From Verrucomicrobiota bacterium (lineage in GTDB: Bacteria > Verrucomicrobiota > Verrucomicrobiia > Chthoniobacterales > UBA10450), in assembly GCA_003218475.1 (NCBI GenBank), contig QHNR01000132.1, positions 1 through 58,051 on the forward strand: DNA of 58,051 nucleotides. Direction: 5' to 3'. Below are positions 21,294-57,976 of the stretch, one piece after another. The notes beneath the pieces are model-generated. The model did no database searches. It was not told the DNA's origin and saw nothing but the letters and a program-made list of their open reading frames with translations. Both the position numbers and the translations under genes were made by a program. Position 1 is the stretch's first letter, and each line of letters starts with the position of its first letter.

Positions 21294-21310
21294 ATCGCGC
21301 GACCGCGCGG

Positions 21311-21466
21311 CTCTGGGGAGCACAGGCTGCCAGCCTGTAGTTCGCGGCAGCTTGCCGCGAACCTGGTCTTCTCGCAGTGGCGTTGGATTAGCGACTTTGC
21401 GCTACGCGCAAATTGCATTTGGCCAGCGGGCAAATGCTACAGACTGGCAGCCTGTGCTCCCCAGAG
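21311..21466. repeat. MITE-like palindromic element, CTGGGGAGCACAGGCTG family, copy 1
   Basis: Outer ends CTCTGGGGAGCACAGGCTGC / GCAGCCTGTGCTCCCCAGAG are inverted repeats. Internal hairpins are GTTCGCGGCAGCTTGCCGCGAAC, TTTGCGCtacGCGCAAA and a third GCATTTG pair. It fills the gap between the folC and metG stops and abuts the metG stop codon exactly. It may act as a bidirectional terminator. Confidence 0.85.
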
Positions 21467-23050
<1,584 letters not shown>

Positions 23051-25117: not shown

Positions 25118-25260
25118 TCTGGGGAGCACAGGCTGCCAGCCTGTAGTTGCCGGCAACCCTGCCGGCAACATCTTCGTCACCGGATTCCGAAATTACACTG
25201 AAATTACCCGGTCTCGGCAAGCTGCCGAGACCTACAGGCTAGCAGCCTGTGCTGCCCAGA
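25118..25260. repeat. MITE-like palindromic element, CTGGGGAGCACAGGCTG family, copy 2
   Basis: Ends TCTGGGGAGCACAGGCTGCC / AGCAGCCTGTGCTGCCCAGA. Internal hairpins GTTGCCGGCAaccCTGCCGGCAAC and GGTCTCGGCAagCTGCCGAGACC. It ends three bases before the aldolase stop codon. Confidence 0.85.
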
Positions 25261-40023: not shown

Positions 40024-40395
40024 CTAGCGATCCGTTGGGCTCGGCGTATTCGGCTCACGATTTGATGAGCGCTCTTCGCCAGTCTGTTCCTTCGTCTTCC
40101 TCACCGCTTTTGTGGATTTGTGATGAGCTGTCGTGGTAGCCTGCGTCTTTTTTTCACCTATGGTTTCGACGGTTTCCTTGGTCTTTCTGCCAACAGTTTC
40201 GGCGGTCTCCTTTGTTTTTTCTCCAACAGTTTCCGCCGCCTGCTTGGTTTTCTCGCCAACGGTTTCGACTCCTTCTTTGATTTTCTCGCCTGCTTTCTTC
40301 GCCCCGTGCTTGATGTCTTGGACTGTTTCTTCCTGCCCAAACACGGCCAGCGTTCCGGCTGTGAGCAAAGCGACAATCAAACTTGTTATTTTCAT
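40024..40395 (-). CDS. Secreted repeat protein (KTKETVETVGE repeats), unknown function
   Basis: 123 residues. The start at 40395 (MKITSLIVALLTAGTL) is fixed by a strong AGAGGAGG ribosome site; the longer frame from 40557 runs over another gene's end. After the signal peptide the chain is built of about five degenerate 11-residue repeats of the type AETVGEKTKET, followed by a Lys/Thr/Ser-rich tail. Such 11-mers form amphipathic helices as in LEA-like stress proteins. Probably periplasmic. Confidence 0.7.
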   Translation of the reverse strand: MKITSLIVALLTAGTLAVFGQEETVQDIKHGAKKAGEKIKEGVETVGEKTKQAAETVGEKTKETAETVGRKTKETVETIGEKKTQATTTAHHKSTKAVRKTKEQTGEERSSNREPNTPSPTDR

Positions 40396-52249: not shown

Positions 52250-52302
52250 GTTTTCGCAAGAGTTACATGGTTAAAACGGAACGGCACCACTTTGTAACTC
52301 TT

Positions 52303-53052
52303 TTAATGGGTTAACAATTTTTTGAGTCCCTTCCAAATCCATCCCAACGGATCGTAAAAGTTGTCCACTACCCGCTCCTTCAACGGGATAATGCCGTTGT
52401 CCGTGATCTGAATACTTTCCGGGCAAACCTTCGTGCAACATTTCGTGATGTTGCAGTAGCCGATTCCCTGTGTGTTTCGCAATTCTTCAATGCGATCTTC
52501 CGTATCGAGTGGATGCATCTCCAATGCGGCGACGTGAATCAGGAAACGTGGTCCGATGAATTTCTCATGCATTTGGTGGTCGCGCAGCACGTGGCACACG
52601 TCCTGACAGAGAAAACATTCGATGCACTTTCGGAACTCCTGCACGCGATCGATGTCATCCTGCTGCATTCGCCAGGTGCCGTCCGGGGCGTCAGGAGGTC
52701 GGGGCTTGAACGGTTTGATCTGTTTCTTCACGCGAAAATTCCACGAGACCTCTGTGACTAAATCCTTCAATATTGGGAAAGCTTTCATCGGCTCGACTGT
52801 CACCGGTCTTTCCAATGGCAGCTCGCTCAGTCGTGTCATACACATGAGTTTCGGAATTCCATTGACTTCCGCCGAGCACGACCCGCACTTGCCGGCCTTG
52901 CAATTCCATCGGCAGGCGAGATCCGGCGCCTGTGTGCGCTGGATATCGTGTACGGCATCGAGCACGACCATGCCTTCGGCAACTTCCGTCGTGTAATCGC
53001 GAAATTCGCCGCCCTTTGCGTCGCCGCGCCAGATTTTGAACGTAGCCGTCAT
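52303..53052 (-). CDS. sdhB: Succinate dehydrogenase/fumarate reductase iron-sulfur subunit
   Basis: 249 residues. The [2Fe-2S] motif reads CRWNCKAGKCGSC with a further Cys (KLMC). The second half carries CIECFLCQDVC and CNITKCCTKVCPE for the [4Fe-4S] and [3Fe-4S] clusters. It passes electrons from SdhA flavin to quinone at the membrane. The ATG overlaps the stop of the four-helix-bundle gene (ATGA), an odd arrangement that couples its translation to that inserted gene rather than to sdhA. Confidence 0.94.
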   Translation of the reverse strand: MTATFKIWRGDAKGGEFRDYTTEVAEGMVVLDAVHDIQRTQAPDLACRWNCKAGKCGSCSAEVNGIPKLMCMTRLSELPLERPVTVEPMKAFPILKDLVTEVSWNFRVKKQIKPFKPRPPDAPDGTWRMQQDDIDRVQEFRKCIECFLCQDVCHVLRDHQMHEKFIGPRFLIHVAALEMHPLDTEDRIEELRNTQGIGYCNITKCCTKVCPESIQITDNGIIPLKERVVDNFYDPLGWIWKGLKKLLTH

Positions 53053-53555
53053 TGGTTGAAGCGTTGAAGCGATGAAGCGTTGAAGCGGCCGAAGAATAGG
53101 TCGTCGAGTTCTTGTTCGTTGAGGCTATAATCGGAAGGAGATTCCCGGATGCGAGAGGACTTTTCGGCAGTCCGGCTGCGTAAAAATCGAATGTAGCCAT
53201 TGATGAGTCTATGAACGCGCCATCCGTCGGACTTCAACTTCTCGATCTCCTCCGCAGGAAAATAGTTTTCGTCGATGCAAACATTGAGGTCATCGAGCAA
53301 CTCTTCTAGCGATCCGCGCGTTTGCAGCATGAACTTGATCTGTTCAAGGAAATGAAAACGCCCGTGACCTTCAGCAATGTTGTTTGTTAACGAAACAGCG
53401 GCCCGGCGGATTTGGCTCGCCAGTGCAAATTTCTCGATTTCAGGCAAGCCTCTGGCAACTCGATACATCGCCTTCCGAAATTCGCGTGCGACCTGATAGA
53501 CTTCCAGGTCTTCGAACGTCTGATACTGCTTCGCTTGGTCTTCTTCCCGCTTCAT
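53049..53555 (-). CDS. Four-helix-bundle protein (23S rRNA intervening-sequence type) inside the sdh operon
   Basis: 168 residues. Core: FEDLEVYQVAREFRKAMY, LASQIRRAAVSLTNNIAEGH and FLEQIKFMLQTRGSLEELL, the S23/IVP signature. Homologs occur as inserts in rRNA genes and as free cassettes; their function is unknown. The tail (RFNASSLQRFNQ) is encoded by a TTGAAGC-type repeat, and a second such repeat overlaps the start. The gene therefore looks like a repeat-flanked cassette inserted between sdhA and sdhB while keeping overlap with sdhB. Confidence 0.85.
   Translation of the reverse strand: MKREEDQAKQYQTFEDLEVYQVAREFRKAMYRVARGLPEIEKFALASQIRRAAVSLTNNIAEGHGRFHFLEQIKFMLQTRGSLEELLDDLNVCIDENYFPAEEIEKLKSDGWRVHRLINGYIRFLRSRTAEKSSRIRESPSDYSLNEQELDDLFFGRFNASSLQRFNQ
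53054..53088. repeat. TTGAAGC repeat tract at the 3' end of the IVP gene
   Basis: Written as GTTGAAGCGTTGAAGCGATGAAGC; it encodes the last residues of the four-helix-bundle protein. Relatives are at 53551-53580, 55399-55434 and 55456-55486, all within the sdh operon. Confidence 0.75.
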
Positions 53556-53580
53556 CGCTTCAACCCTTCATCGCTTTAGC
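53551..53580. repeat. TTGAAGC repeat tract at the 5' end of the IVP gene
   Basis: TTCATCGCTTCAACCCTTCATCGC, read on the minus strand as GCGATGAAGGGTTGAAGCGATGAA. It includes the start codon of the inserted gene and the stop of sdhA. Confidence 0.7.
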
Positions 53581-55393
53581 GATGCTCTTCGATAACCTGC
53601 TTCAAATACTCCGGCATGTCCGGCAAGGGCTCCAGATGCACTTGCATCGAACCGTCCGCTGATTTCGACACGATCGTGTTCACTTTTCCAAATCGCTCAT
53701 CTTTATCTGGGTAATCTTCACGGAACTGTGCGCCGCGACTTTCTTTTCTCTCCAGCGCGGCGCGCGTTATAGCTTCTGAAACCGTCAGCAGATTTTTTAA
53801 ATCGAGCGCGGTATGCCAACCCGGATTGTATTCGCGATTGCCTGTAACCGCAGCTTGTTTAGCGCGCCCTTTGAGCTCGTCGATCCTCTCAAGCGCTTCG
53901 CGCATTTCAGCTTCGGTGCGCACAATTCCTACGAGATTTTGCATCGTTTCCTGCAGATCCCTCTGGATCGCATAAGGATTCTCGCTCCCGCGGCCGCGGG
54001 ACTCGAACGGAGTCAGCGCCTCGCGTGCCACCGTGTCGATCTCGTCCGTATTGATCTGGCCGTGCGGATTGTCTCTCGCGAATGTCGCTGCAAATTCGCC
54101 GCCGCGTTTTCCGAACACCAAAAGGTCAGAGAGCGAATTTCCACCGAGCCGGTTTGCGCCGTTGATGCCGGCTGCGCATTCTCCGGCAGCAAACAGGCCG
54201 GGCAAGCGCGACATCTGGGTGTCTGGATCCACGCGCACGCCGCCCATGATGTAGTGGGTGGTTGGTCCAACCTCCATCGGCTGCTCCGTGATATCGATGT
54301 CGGCGAGTTGTTTAAACTGATGATACATGCTGGGAAGTTTCCGCTTAATGTGTTCGGCGGCATTGGGCATTTTTTGTTTGATCCACGAAATATCGAGATA
54401 AACGCCGCCGTGAGGACTTCCCCTGCCCTCTTTGATCTCGCGCACGATACAACGCGAGACGTGATCACGCGTTAGCAACTCGGGTGGGCGGCGCGCGTCT
54501 TTGTGCCCCTGGCAATATCGCCAGCCCTCCTCCTCGTTATCCGCAGTCTGAGCTTGATAGTTTCCCGGGATCGACTCGAACATGAAACGTTTGCCATCGT
54601 TGTTGAGCAGGATTCCGCCTTCGCCGCGCACTCCTTCGGTGACCAAAATTCCCATCACGCTCGGCGGCCAAACCATCCCGGTCGGATGGAACTGAATAAA
54701 CTCCATGTCGATAAGTTCTGCGCCAGCCTCATATGCGAGAGCGTGGCCATCTCCAGTGTATTCCCAGCTATTACTCGTAATTTTGTAGGCGCGCCCAATC
54801 CCACCGGTTGCCAGTACCACTGCTTTCGCGTGAAAAATTTTAAACCGACCGCGCTCACGCTCGTATCCAAAGGCGCCTACCACGCGGTCGCCGTCTTTGA
54901 GCAGCGAAAGAATGGTGTGCTCCATGTGCACATCTATTCCCTGGTGAACGCCATGGTCTTGCAGAGTGCGGATCATTTCCAAGCCGGTGCGATCACCTAC
55001 ATGCGCTAACCGCGGATATTTGTGGCCGCCGAAATGTCTTTGCAGAATTCGGCCGTCTTTGGTGCGATCGAAAACGGCGCCCCACGCTTCGAGCTCGCGC
55101 ACGCGATCGGGCGCTTCCTTCGCGTGCAGCTCAGCCATCCGCCATTGGTTCACATATTGGCCTCCGCGCATGGTATCGGCGAAATGGACTTTCCAGTTGT
55201 CGCGTTCATCGACATTGGCCAGCGCCGCCGCGATTCCGCCCTCGGCCATTACCGTATGCGCCTTGCCTAACAACGATTTGCAAACCAGTCCAACGCGAAC
55301 ACCCGCAGCGGAAGCTTCAATCGAAGCGCGCAACCCTGCGCCCCCCGCGCCGATAACAAGAACATCATGTTCGACGGTTTCGTAATTGGACAT
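53576..55393 (-). CDS. sdhA: Succinate dehydrogenase/fumarate reductase flavoprotein subunit
   Basis: 605 residues. FAD-binding VIGAGGAGLRASIEA at the N-terminus, the covalent-FAD histidine in GKAHTVMAEGG (His46), then FIQFHPTGM and GGNSLSDLLVFG of the dicarboxylate site. The C-terminal domain carries the usual REDYPDKD. Oxidises succinate to fumarate. Upstream in the operon is sdhC and downstream the inserted four-helix-bundle gene, then sdhB. Confidence 0.96.
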   Translation of the reverse strand: MSNYETVEHDVLVIGAGGAGLRASIEASAAGVRVGLVCKSLLGKAHTVMAEGGIAAALANVDERDNWKVHFADTMRGGQYVNQWRMAELHAKEAPDRVRELEAWGAVFDRTKDGRILQRHFGGHKYPRLAHVGDRTGLEMIRTLQDHGVHQGIDVHMEHTILSLLKDGDRVVGAFGYERERGRFKIFHAKAVVLATGGIGRAYKITSNSWEYTGDGHALAYEAGAELIDMEFIQFHPTGMVWPPSVMGILVTEGVRGEGGILLNNDGKRFMFESIPGNYQAQTADNEEEGWRYCQGHKDARRPPELLTRDHVSRCIVREIKEGRGSPHGGVYLDISWIKQKMPNAAEHIKRKLPSMYHQFKQLADIDITEQPMEVGPTTHYIMGGVRVDPDTQMSRLPGLFAAGECAAGINGANRLGGNSLSDLLVFGKRGGEFAATFARDNPHGQINTDEIDTVAREALTPFESRGRGSENPYAIQRDLQETMQNLVGIVRTEAEMREALERIDELKGRAKQAAVTGNREYNPGWHTALDLKNLLTVSEAITRAALERKESRGAQFREDYPDKDERFGKVNTIVSKSADGSMQVHLEPLPDMPEYLKQVIEEHR

Positions 55394-55398
55394 GGGAG

Positions 55399-55486
55399 TC
55401 GTTGAAGCGTTAAAGAGTTGAAGTGTTGAAGCGTTGGTCCGCGAGTAATTTAGTCCGCTTCAACACATCTCGCTTCATCGCTCAAA
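55399..55486. repeat. Two TTGAAGC repeat tracts between sdhC and sdhA
   Basis: GTTGAAGCG...TTGAAGTGTTGAAGCG at 55399-55434 and CGCTTCAACACATCTCGCTTC at 55456-55476, facing each other so that they could pair. The right one touches the sdhC stop. Confidence 0.65.
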
Positions 55487-56270
55487 CGATTCTGAAATCG
55501 TGCCAGATTCCCATTGCGCACAGGCGCACGTAGAGATCGGCGAAACCGACCCAGAACAAGCTCAGCCAGGCCCAGAGCATGTGGCGCTGATTAAAGCACG
55601 TCACGCAAGTGTAGGCGCGATAACATGCCGGCGATCTGGAAAATTGATCCAAAAAGCCGCCGGCCAAATGCCGCAATGAGTGGCAGCCAAAAGTGTAACC
55701 ACTGAGTAAAACAACGTTGATCGCCAGGACGATTGTCCCAATGCCAATTCCAAATCCATCTGAAAACCAGAGCGCTTTCCAAACGTCGATCGACAGGATG
55801 ATCAGGAAGACGAGAGCGAGATAGAGAAAATAGCGATGCACATTTTGCATGATGAGCGGGAACGAACGCTCACCCCAGTAACTTTTGCGCGGCTCACCCA
55901 CAGTGCAGGCCGGTGGATCAGCCCAAAAGGCTTTGTAGTATGCGCCGCGATAGTAATAGCAGGTGACACGAAATCCCGCGGGCGCCCAGAGAACCAGCAG
56001 CGCGGGAGAAAAAAGCAGCCAGCCTGGCCACCAAGTAGGTTTACGTCCAAGCCAGCTGTGAGGCGAATCGCCAAAAATCTCCGGCGAATAAAACGGCGAG
56101 ATGTAATTGCCGGAGAAGTAATTCTCACTCTGAAACGCCGCCCAAGTGGAATAGATGATGAAAATAGATAATCCAATAAAAACCAGGAGCGGCTGAGTCC
56201 ACCATACATCGGCGCGCATGGTCTCGCCAAATGAGCGGCGAGGCAAACTCGTTGTTGTTGTTCCGTTCAT
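55482..56270 (-). CDS. sdhC: Succinate dehydrogenase membrane (cytochrome b-like) subunit
   Basis: 262 residues with five to six membrane helices. His candidates for heme: IMQNVHRYFLY, GCHSLRHLAGG and MGIWHDFRIV. Unusual for an SdhC: a long soluble loop with YYRGAYYKAFWADPPACTVG and several Cys-rich bits (CYRAYTCVTCFN). First gene of the operon by position, followed by sdhA. Called by context as much as by sequence. Similar long anchors are known in type B/E-like complexes, but the exact class cannot be told here. Confidence 0.75.
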   Translation of the reverse strand: MNGTTTTSLPRRSFGETMRADVWWTQPLLVFIGLSIFIIYSTWAAFQSENYFSGNYISPFYSPEIFGDSPHSWLGRKPTWWPGWLLFSPALLVLWAPAGFRVTCYYYRGAYYKAFWADPPACTVGEPRKSYWGERSFPLIMQNVHRYFLYLALVFLIILSIDVWKALWFSDGFGIGIGTIVLAINVVLLSGYTFGCHSLRHLAGGFLDQFSRSPACYRAYTCVTCFNQRHMLWAWLSLFWVGFADLYVRLCAMGIWHDFRIV

Positions 56271-56295
56271 TTGCTATTCGGCGACAAACAAGAAC

Positions 56296-56339
56296 GACGG
56301 CTTGGGCAGCCGTCGAAAGATGACGGCTGGGAAGCCGTC
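56296..56339. repeat. Double-hairpin repeat (GACGGCTTGGGCAGCCGTC ... GACGGCTGGGAAGCCGTC)
   Basis: Two near-identical hairpins with one stem sequence (GACGGCT/AGCCGTC) lie between sdhC and the persulfide dioxygenase-like gene. Followed by CACTCCTT, the same end as the repeats at 20111-20163 and 17164-17218. Confidence 0.65.
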
Positions 56340-57831: not shown

Positions 57832-57976
57832 TCTGGGGAGCACAGGCTGCCAGCCTGTTGTTTTCGGCAGCCTGCCGAAAAGCTTTTGAACGTTCATCTC
57901 CAAAGCTTTTTTGCAACGTTGGAGTGTCGTCGGCAAGCTGCCGACGACTGCAGGCTGGCAGCCTGCGCTCCCCAGA
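57832..57976. repeat. MITE-like palindromic element, CTGGGGAGCACAGGCTG family, copy 3
   Basis: TCTGGGGAGCACAGGCTGCC / GGCAGCCTGCGCTCCCCAGA ends; inner GTTTTCGGCAgcCTGCCGAAAA and GTCGTCGGCAagCTGCCGACGAC. It ends four bases before the stop codon of the truncated gene at 57981. Confidence 0.85.

Follow-up and report, generated by a model that had tools for sequence, protein, structure and literature searches.

An IVP gene enclosed by a hairpin of inverted tandem repeats at a verrucomicrobial sdhA/sdhB junction suggests a widespread small mobile element

What is an IVP gene doing between two genes of an sdh operon? The question is raised by a contig of a Verrucomicrobiota bacterium (QHNR01000132.1), of which positions 1 to 58,051 were analyzed; we refer to this stretch of 58,051 nucleotides as the window. 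IVP (S23) proteins are described, in the part of PMC4990558 that deals with them, as having no known function. The original prediction placed such a gene between sdhA and sdhB, and both the family profiles and the ORF coordinates agree (Table 1). The product lies above the curated cutoffs of both PF05635 (E 5.5e-27; 94.5 bits against 33.8) and TIGR02436 (E 1.2e-23; 83.4 bits against 24), which places it in the IVP family. Compared with solved structures, the IVP profile finds 2gsc (E 1e-34) and 2rld as relatives by sequence. The predicted overlap between the IVP stop and the sdhB start is likewise borne out: the two genes share the 4 nt ATGA at 53049–53052. That sdhB translation depends on the IVP gene, as the original prediction had it, is conjecture. 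The name sdhC for the gene upstream of sdhA is given by position, because neither Pfam nor NCBIfam yields a match to the protein encoded at 55482–56270 at E 0.001.

The IVP gene is embedded in short repeats. TRF reports GTTGAAGC-type octamer arrays at 53055–53087 and 53548–53576, and a third at 55400–55436, between sdhC and sdhA. Repeats at the start and tail of the gene and in the sdhC–sdhA gap had been noted before, and they are present, but their inverted nature had been missed. The two tracts at the IVP gene are mutually reverse-complementary (alignment score 45, reached by 0 of 20,000 mononucleotide shuffles) and therefore form the arms of a hairpin that encloses the gene. Since the 5′ arm abuts the stop of sdhA and only a few nucleotides separate the 3′ arm from the start of sdhB, the element occupies the entire junction. 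In the folded 561-nt sense transcript, the loop bearing the IVP gene is closed via these arms (MFE −186.8, z −2.47, 1 of 100 shuffles as low). The IVP-less hairpin between sdhC and sdhA folds with an MFE of −35.8 kcal/mol (z −4.86).

Table 1. Features of the sdh locus in the window (positions in the window; arms named in operon sense).
Feature	Position	Strand	Basis
IVP (S23, four-helix-bundle) ORF, 168 aa	53049..53555	(-)	PF05635/TIGR02436 profiles
5′ arm, degenerate GTTGAAGC/GATGAAGC octamers; includes IVP start, abuts sdhA stop	53541..53576	(-)	TRF, alignment
3′ arm, reverse complement of 5′ arm; encodes IVP C-terminal tail, ends a few nt before sdhB start	53059..53096	(-)	TRF, alignment
sdhA, flavoprotein subunit; host operon gene 5′ of element	53576..55393	(-)	profiles
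sdhB, iron-sulfur subunit; host operon gene 3′ of element	52303..53052	(-)	profiles
putative sdhC	55482..56270	(-)	position
IVP-less hairpin with the same octamer in the sdhC–sdhA gap, loop 22 nt	55396..55492	.	TRF, hairpin scan, folding

This anatomy recalls the 23S rRNA IVSs of Leptospira and Coxiella, whose complementary ends form a stem-loop around an IVP ORF and whose presence is sporadic, according to the part of PMC4990558 that covers them. Like them, the window element has stem-forming complementary ends and an ORF of the same family in its loop. Unlike them, it sits at a stop/start junction of a protein-coding operon rather than in an rRNA helix, and a search of 52250–56300 against Rfam gave no family match at E ≤ 1. 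The arms differ as well, since those of IVP elements consist of 7- to 8-nt tandem repeats with a locus-specific word. IVSs of rRNA also occur without an ORF. IVPs have in addition been placed in rRNA insertions of CPR bacteria, in the relevant part of PMC11270868. On the strength of sequence comparison, we think it probable that the window locus represents a small and widespread kind of mobile hairpin element, IVS-like but residing in operon mRNA and composed of cognate arms and an IVP.

How do other IVP genes compare? In the bacterium's own genome (3.16 Mb, 83% complete), PF05635 has 12 matches, which we interpret as 10 genes; 14 control genomes have none. For each gene, we aligned the upstream flank to the reverse-complemented downstream flank and set own pairs against swapped pairs. 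The own pairs score 45, 42, 46, 34, 60, 38, 19, 24, 25, and 23, against medians of 17–19 and maxima of 19–24 for swapped pairs. Relative to the swapped maximum, six genes are strong, three lie slightly above it, and one (L007) lies below. By eye, the arm words include GTTGAAGC, TGGAGTGA, ATGATC/GAGCAT, GAGGAC, GATTTAGC, GGATTGCG, and others. Thus, the expectation that the same repeats would recur at other IVP genes fails: most other loci carry a different word, the word varies by locus, and a window octamer common to all IVP genes was rejected. Sites recognized by eye lie between operon partners, namely at gap/pgk, response regulator/sensor gene, and transporter-gene junctions. At G000:C114:255-837 (L008, L010), a small GIY-YIG nuclease ORF splits an IVP gene, seemingly because an element of one type moved into an element of the other.

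We extended the arm test to 127 nonredundant IVP loci from the genus, order, and phylum (the phylum set; duplicates and flanks shorter than 200 nt were dropped). The 95th percentile of 4000 swapped pairs is exceeded by 103 of the 127 (5% expected), with an own median of 35 and a swap median of 17. The 99th percentile, a tail that is high because some loci share a word, is exceeded by 41. Many of these loci are orthologs, so we also counted sites: the 127 loci make up 47 flank-linked sites, with one or more passing loci at 38 and at least half passing at 37. A wider scan of a genome collection took the best 80 matches to the query from many phyla (phylum labels are our own), a sample skewed to the query's close relatives because only the best 80 were taken. 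Once four loci with short flanks were dropped, 65 of 76 exceeded the 95th percentile and 52 the 99th (own median 39.5). Ordinary genes pass these 95th-percentile thresholds far less often (0 of 31, 9 of 102, and 8 of 389; 17 of 491 for the last two), and a few of those that pass may border real hairpins. Failures number 24 of 127 in the phylum set, including L062, L063, and L065 at the sdh site, and 11 of 76 among the loci from the best 80 matches; some of them are perhaps decayed. The same anatomy is found at four annotated cyanobacterial plasmid IVP loci, which form two near-copy pairs (arm scores 56, 56, 44, and 44). These plasmid IVPs were rejected as recent transpositions, since the two Calothrix plasmids have neighboring genes in common too. 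No phage match was found among 50,697 records.

A period of 7 fits best in 53 of the 139 arm pairs that score above 28, a period of 14 in 40, and a period of 8 in 29 (122 of 139 together), and shuffles are flat. When the arms are read inward, G exceeds C at 80 of 94 and 55 of 59 loci (135 of 153). The median element length is 482 nt. At 156 loci with an arm score of at least 28, the IVP stop falls before the 3′ arm in 83, inside it in 49, and beyond it in 24. The commonest distance from IVP to downstream ORF is −4, yet it occurs at 20 of 188 loci with a downstream ORF within reach, and the ATGA overlap as a universal IVP rule was therefore rejected. The upstream neighbor (neighbors here are mechanical ORFs) is co-directional with the IVP gene in 110 of 121 cases in the phylum set and 60 of 72 in another count; the downstream neighbor is co-directional in 88 of 119 and 57 of 71. 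The baseline is 201 of 316 adjacent ORF pairs in stretches of the own genome, with slightly different length and distance limits. The recurrence of a gene within a repeat hairpin in many bacterial groups, with differing words, suggests a widespread small mobile element. As we picture it, degenerate tandem repeats of 7 or 8 nt would make up its two inverted arms, with an IVP gene between them. The whole, about 480 nt long, would sit at gene junctions, mostly 3′ of a co-directional gene.

These data also bear on a competing explanation, a mutational hotspot. Quasipalindrome correction involves template switching between imperfect inverted repeats; such switching, together with replication slippage, would build the arms, the IVP would be a host gene or passenger that lies in such hairpins by chance, and nothing would move as a unit. 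Arms made of degenerate 7- to 8-nt tandem repeats are what this process might leave behind. Against it stands the association of arms with IVP genes rather than ordinary genes, evident in both the phylum set and the sample drawn from the best 80 matches. We return to the hotspot below, where arm words are compared.

What does the sdhA/sdhB junction look like in relatives? Among 35 genus genomes searched, 29 have a strong sdhB locus, and 28 junctions are readable because one locus (L052) begins within sdhB. An IVP is present at 12 of the 28, two of them internally deleted (L049, L065). The junction is compact in 6, with a stop/start overlap in four and 8 nt in two. Another 8 contain a different hairpin or a remnant, assigned by eye and in two cases also folded: a ACGGATTAC-type hairpin in L045, L046, and L071; a GCGTCTCGCGTGC-type hairpin in L053, L055, and L066, with a remnant in L061; and a GTCATCC-type hairpin in L048. 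Of the remaining two, one has a decayed IVP (L060) and the other an unrelated ORF of about 800 nt that is rhodanese-like by eye (L050 696-1495, genome G008). Filled sites have the 5′ arm at the sdhA stop and a 3′ arm that reaches close to the sdhB start; both the stop and the start are kept in the filled junctions inspected, and 8 of 12 have a −4 overlap from IVP to sdhB. An IVP gene in all relatives, free of repeats, is the pattern that would speak against a cassette, and it was not found among the 28 genus junctions. The proposal of a mobile, operon-preserving cassette thus gains ground in part: the site is polymorphic, related elements lie elsewhere in unrelated flanks, and the sdhA stop and sdhB start persist, but no movement event was seen.

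The same junctions weigh on the possibility that the IVP serves the sdh operon as a regulator or assembly factor, with repeats that are incidental or regulatory. The IVP gene does show signs of purifying selection, which speaks for such a role. Its median dN/dS is 0.05–0.09 in four groups, with few unsaturated pairs (4 of 28 for sdh, 1 of 6, 10 of 28, and 7 of 45); a single pair, L057/L059, gives 0.38, and sdhB gives 0.037 (22 of 36 pairs unsaturated). Moreover, an IVP directly adjoins a second SdhB-like gene as well, in at least nine genomes (G027:C82, G034:C229, G014:C58, G021:C6, G008:C200, G012:C282, G022:C221, G006:C220, and G032:C247), although the G032 copy is broken by a stop. On the other side, 16 of the 28 readable junctions lack an IVP match and 2 more have an internally deleted IVP, 76 genus IVPs are spread over 21 flank-linked sites, and in the own genome, gap/pgk, two-component, and transporter junctions are among the sites recognized by eye. 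A role in the sdh operon is therefore very unlikely in our judgment. The IVPs beside the second SdhB-like gene have GTTGAGAG-type arms in the loci inspected, with a −4 overlap in L073; judged from these sequences, two paralogous sdhB junctions appear to have been entered by different IVP lineages. In G025:C182, an IVP adjoins a second, partial sdhB, apart from the IVP-less junction of L055, so that either the operon is duplicated or the assembly is mixed.

Does an IVP lineage take its arms along from site to site? In a tree of 93 IVPs (duplicates, truncated, and frameshifted IVPs were left out), ten sdh-site rows fall inside one 14-row subfamily, along with four from another site. By eye, the word tracks the sdh subclade: GTTGAAGC in L001, L067, and L068; ATCGTGAATCG in L044, L051, L062, and L069; and GTTAAAAA in L057 and L059. 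The word of L063, also at the sdh site, is not clear by eye. We then compared pairs among 76 loci of the genus whose arms are clear and which lie at 21 flank-linked sites, excluding arm scores below 26 and five order-level loci. Across 2620 different-site pairs, IVP identity and arm similarity are correlated (r 0.51, 0 of 1000 permutations as high), with the proviso that sites were called from short-flank protein similarity, so that contig breaks may have made a single site look like two in some “different” pairs. Among different-site pairs, arm similarity exceeds 0.6 in 35 of 100 with 60–70% IVP identity and 14 of 29 above 70%, as against 1 of 2491 below 60%. The alignments of L078 with L079 and of L087 with L078 cover only about 400 nt, beginning shortly before the IVP domain and stopping shortly after it.

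From the tree, the subclade words, and the different-site pairs, it follows that the word goes with the IVP lineage more than with the site. The IVPs at one given site look largely inherited. The arm word itself does change over time, about half of the close different-site pairs having lost their common word. The arms are not strictly tied to an IVP, because even at the sdh site the word is an entirely different one from subclade to subclade. A hotspot would account for these wholesale differences at one site and for the IVP-less hairpins at the same junction. It does not lead one to expect that related IVPs at unrelated sites tend to have a word in common, or that homology between related copies stops near the arms. 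On balance, we regard the hotspot as unlikely.

Repeat hairpins also occur solo, without a gene. We counted 20 of them across 396 kb of stretches that were in part chosen but 1 across 211 kb of unchosen sequence, with 0 in shuffles of either; the rarity in unchosen sequence weighs against the mobile-element reading. Several have words in common with IVP arms of the same genome. The six own-genome IVP arms match solo arms with a median best match of 0.59, two of the six poorly (0.31 and 0.28); for arms of other genomes the medians are 0.36, 0.26, and 0.25 (62, 18, and 59 loci, respectively).

If such an element moves, which enzyme moves it? One idea is that the IVP, like Avd, partners a reverse transcriptase that copies the element. 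PF05635 resembles the Avd of diversity-generating retroelements, and 2gsc, which the IVP profile matches, has been aligned with Avd in the portion of PMC10053308 that treats the family. The protein relationship is the likeness; the difference is that the own genome (83% complete) has 0 RVT_1 matches. Of the 35 genus genomes, 8 contain RVT_1, and genomes free of it hold up to 13 IVP matches. A reverse-transcriptase partner was thus rejected, given its absence from the own genome and from most of the genus, and an Avd-like retroelement is extremely unlikely.

A second idea is that Y1 (RAYT/TnpA-REP) transposases move the hairpins in trans, with the IVP as cargo. In REP/REPIN systems, short hairpins are scattered through the genome, and the RAYT gene has a cognate hairpin at its flanks. 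The IVP element is similar in its flanked gene and perhaps in the scattered hairpins, but its gene encodes a PF05635 four-helix bundle and not a Y1 HUH transposase. Y1_Tnp is certainly at hand, in 33 of 35 genus genomes and with 11 hits in the own genome. Unlike the IVP arms, the Y1 loci inspected in the same genus sit in other, fixed-sequence hairpins: 15 of 16 examined (L331–L346) have recurring fixed-sequence inverted flanks and one has none, at least three sequence types are shared among loci by eye, and none of the 16 has arms with a periodicity above 0.41. A Y1 transposase was rejected as owner of the repeat arms for this reason, and movement by Y1 in trans is highly unlikely.

Small GIY-YIG nucleases were also considered as arm owners and rejected, since no tandem-repeat arms were seen by eye at 19 loci. 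Most of these have fixed-sequence ends of the GTCATTCCGAGCGAAG or CCCCGTGAGATA type, and others have partial tRNA copies or no clear hairpin; 5 of 19 lie above their own swap 95th percentile (36). GIY-YIG genes L273–L287, L289, and L300–L302 often lie, by eye, inside fixed hairpins of the GTCATTCCGAGCGAAGTCGAGGAATC type or with ACCCCGTGAGATA ends, and GIY-YIG hairpins may by eye constitute a parallel ORF-bearing hairpin family. Two of these genes (L273, L289) adjoin tRNA genes, and a partial copy of the tRNA end lies beyond them on the opposite side, again by eye. The solo hairpin at the L048 sdhA/sdhB junction resembles a GIY-YIG hairpin type. Comparison of the IVP, Y1, and GIY-YIG loci thus indicates that each gene type seemingly keeps its own hairpin type. 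No mobility enzyme for the IVP element was identified among the reverse transcriptase, RAYT, and GIY-YIG genes examined.

How, then, might an IVS-like hairpin element operate in an operon? By analogy, it would work as the 23S rRNA IVS does, through a hairpin stem and an IVP ORF, but in operon mRNA. The arms would pair in the transcript and be cut by RNase III, which would free the IVP mRNA from the sdh message, on the model of the rRNA IVS as presented in part of PMC4990558. The match between lineage and word points to an IVP that recognizes its own arms, as RNA or DNA. Spread of the element would require the IVP, and the host would provide the enzyme that cuts or copies. After completing sdhA and then the IVP gene, ribosomes would open the stem and pass to sdhB at the ATGA overlap; owing to this handover, insertion would cost the operon little. 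The long-range stem between sdhA and sdhB may also uncouple the subunit transcripts. Alternatively, the inverted repeats could act at the DNA level instead of RNA. The arms are G-rich inward on both strands; to speculate, this polarity is the one expected if repeats were added to the two 3′ ends at a break.

A bolder version of the mobile-element reading goes further. In it, IVP hairpins would be an undescribed, near pan-bacterial mobile class, in which a catalytically silent four-helix bundle recognizes its own short-repeat arms. Repeat synthesis at the two 3′ ends exposed by a break would produce the arms, in a telomere-like manner and with a lineage-drifting word, which would account for the inward G-rich strands, and the 23S rRNA IVSs and cas-operon IVPs would be special cases. 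We offer this version tentatively and put its chances at clearly below even.

The reading of the window locus as one copy of an IVS-like element is relevant for several questions. First, a cognate arm for each IVP lineage offers a direct binding test for proteins of no known function. Second, the element would explain IVP genes in unrelated operons: sdh, the second SdhB-like gene, gap-pgk, and, by prediction, cas. Indeed, 18 IVP genes have been found in cas loci, for example in the cmr3–cmr2 gap of Pleurocapsa, and were read as having a CRISPR-associated function in the passage of PMC3936711 that discusses them. They lie inside an operon as the window IVP does, and arms go unmentioned in that passage; an IVP also figures in a legend on CRISPR-linked modules in PMC10910872. 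Our model predicts that these IVPs, read so far as CRISPR-linked, are operon passengers. Finally, the analysis adds a candidate element class, present in most bacterial groups of the wider scan of the best 80 matches.

Parts of this anatomy have precedents. The window element has inverted ends, as a MITE does, although comparison of filled with compact sdh junctions revealed no clear target-site duplication. Cyanobacterial STRRs are intergenic 7-nt tandem repeats. The TAACTGA repeats of Beggiatoaceae are likewise intergenic and 7 nt long, with one fixed word, and are direct save one of 170 in the part of PMC4679880 that describes them. IVP elements share intergenic 7-nt tandem repeats with both, but unlike TAACTGA, their arms are inverted and their words vary. 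The text of PMC4679880 makes no mention of S23, four helix, or intervening. In the accessible parts of the open-access literature naming the PF05635 family, we found no description of repeat arms around IVP genes; thus, an IVP-in-repeat-hairpin element was not found described in the open-access literature searched.

The window contains other repeats as well. A hairpin of fixed sequence, TCTGGGGAGCACAGGCTGCCAGCCTG, is present in three copies (21310–21467, 25118–25260, and 57832–57976), with more in the own genome (L313, L317, L321), and a 33-nt tandem repeat runs for 3.9 copies at 40163–40290.
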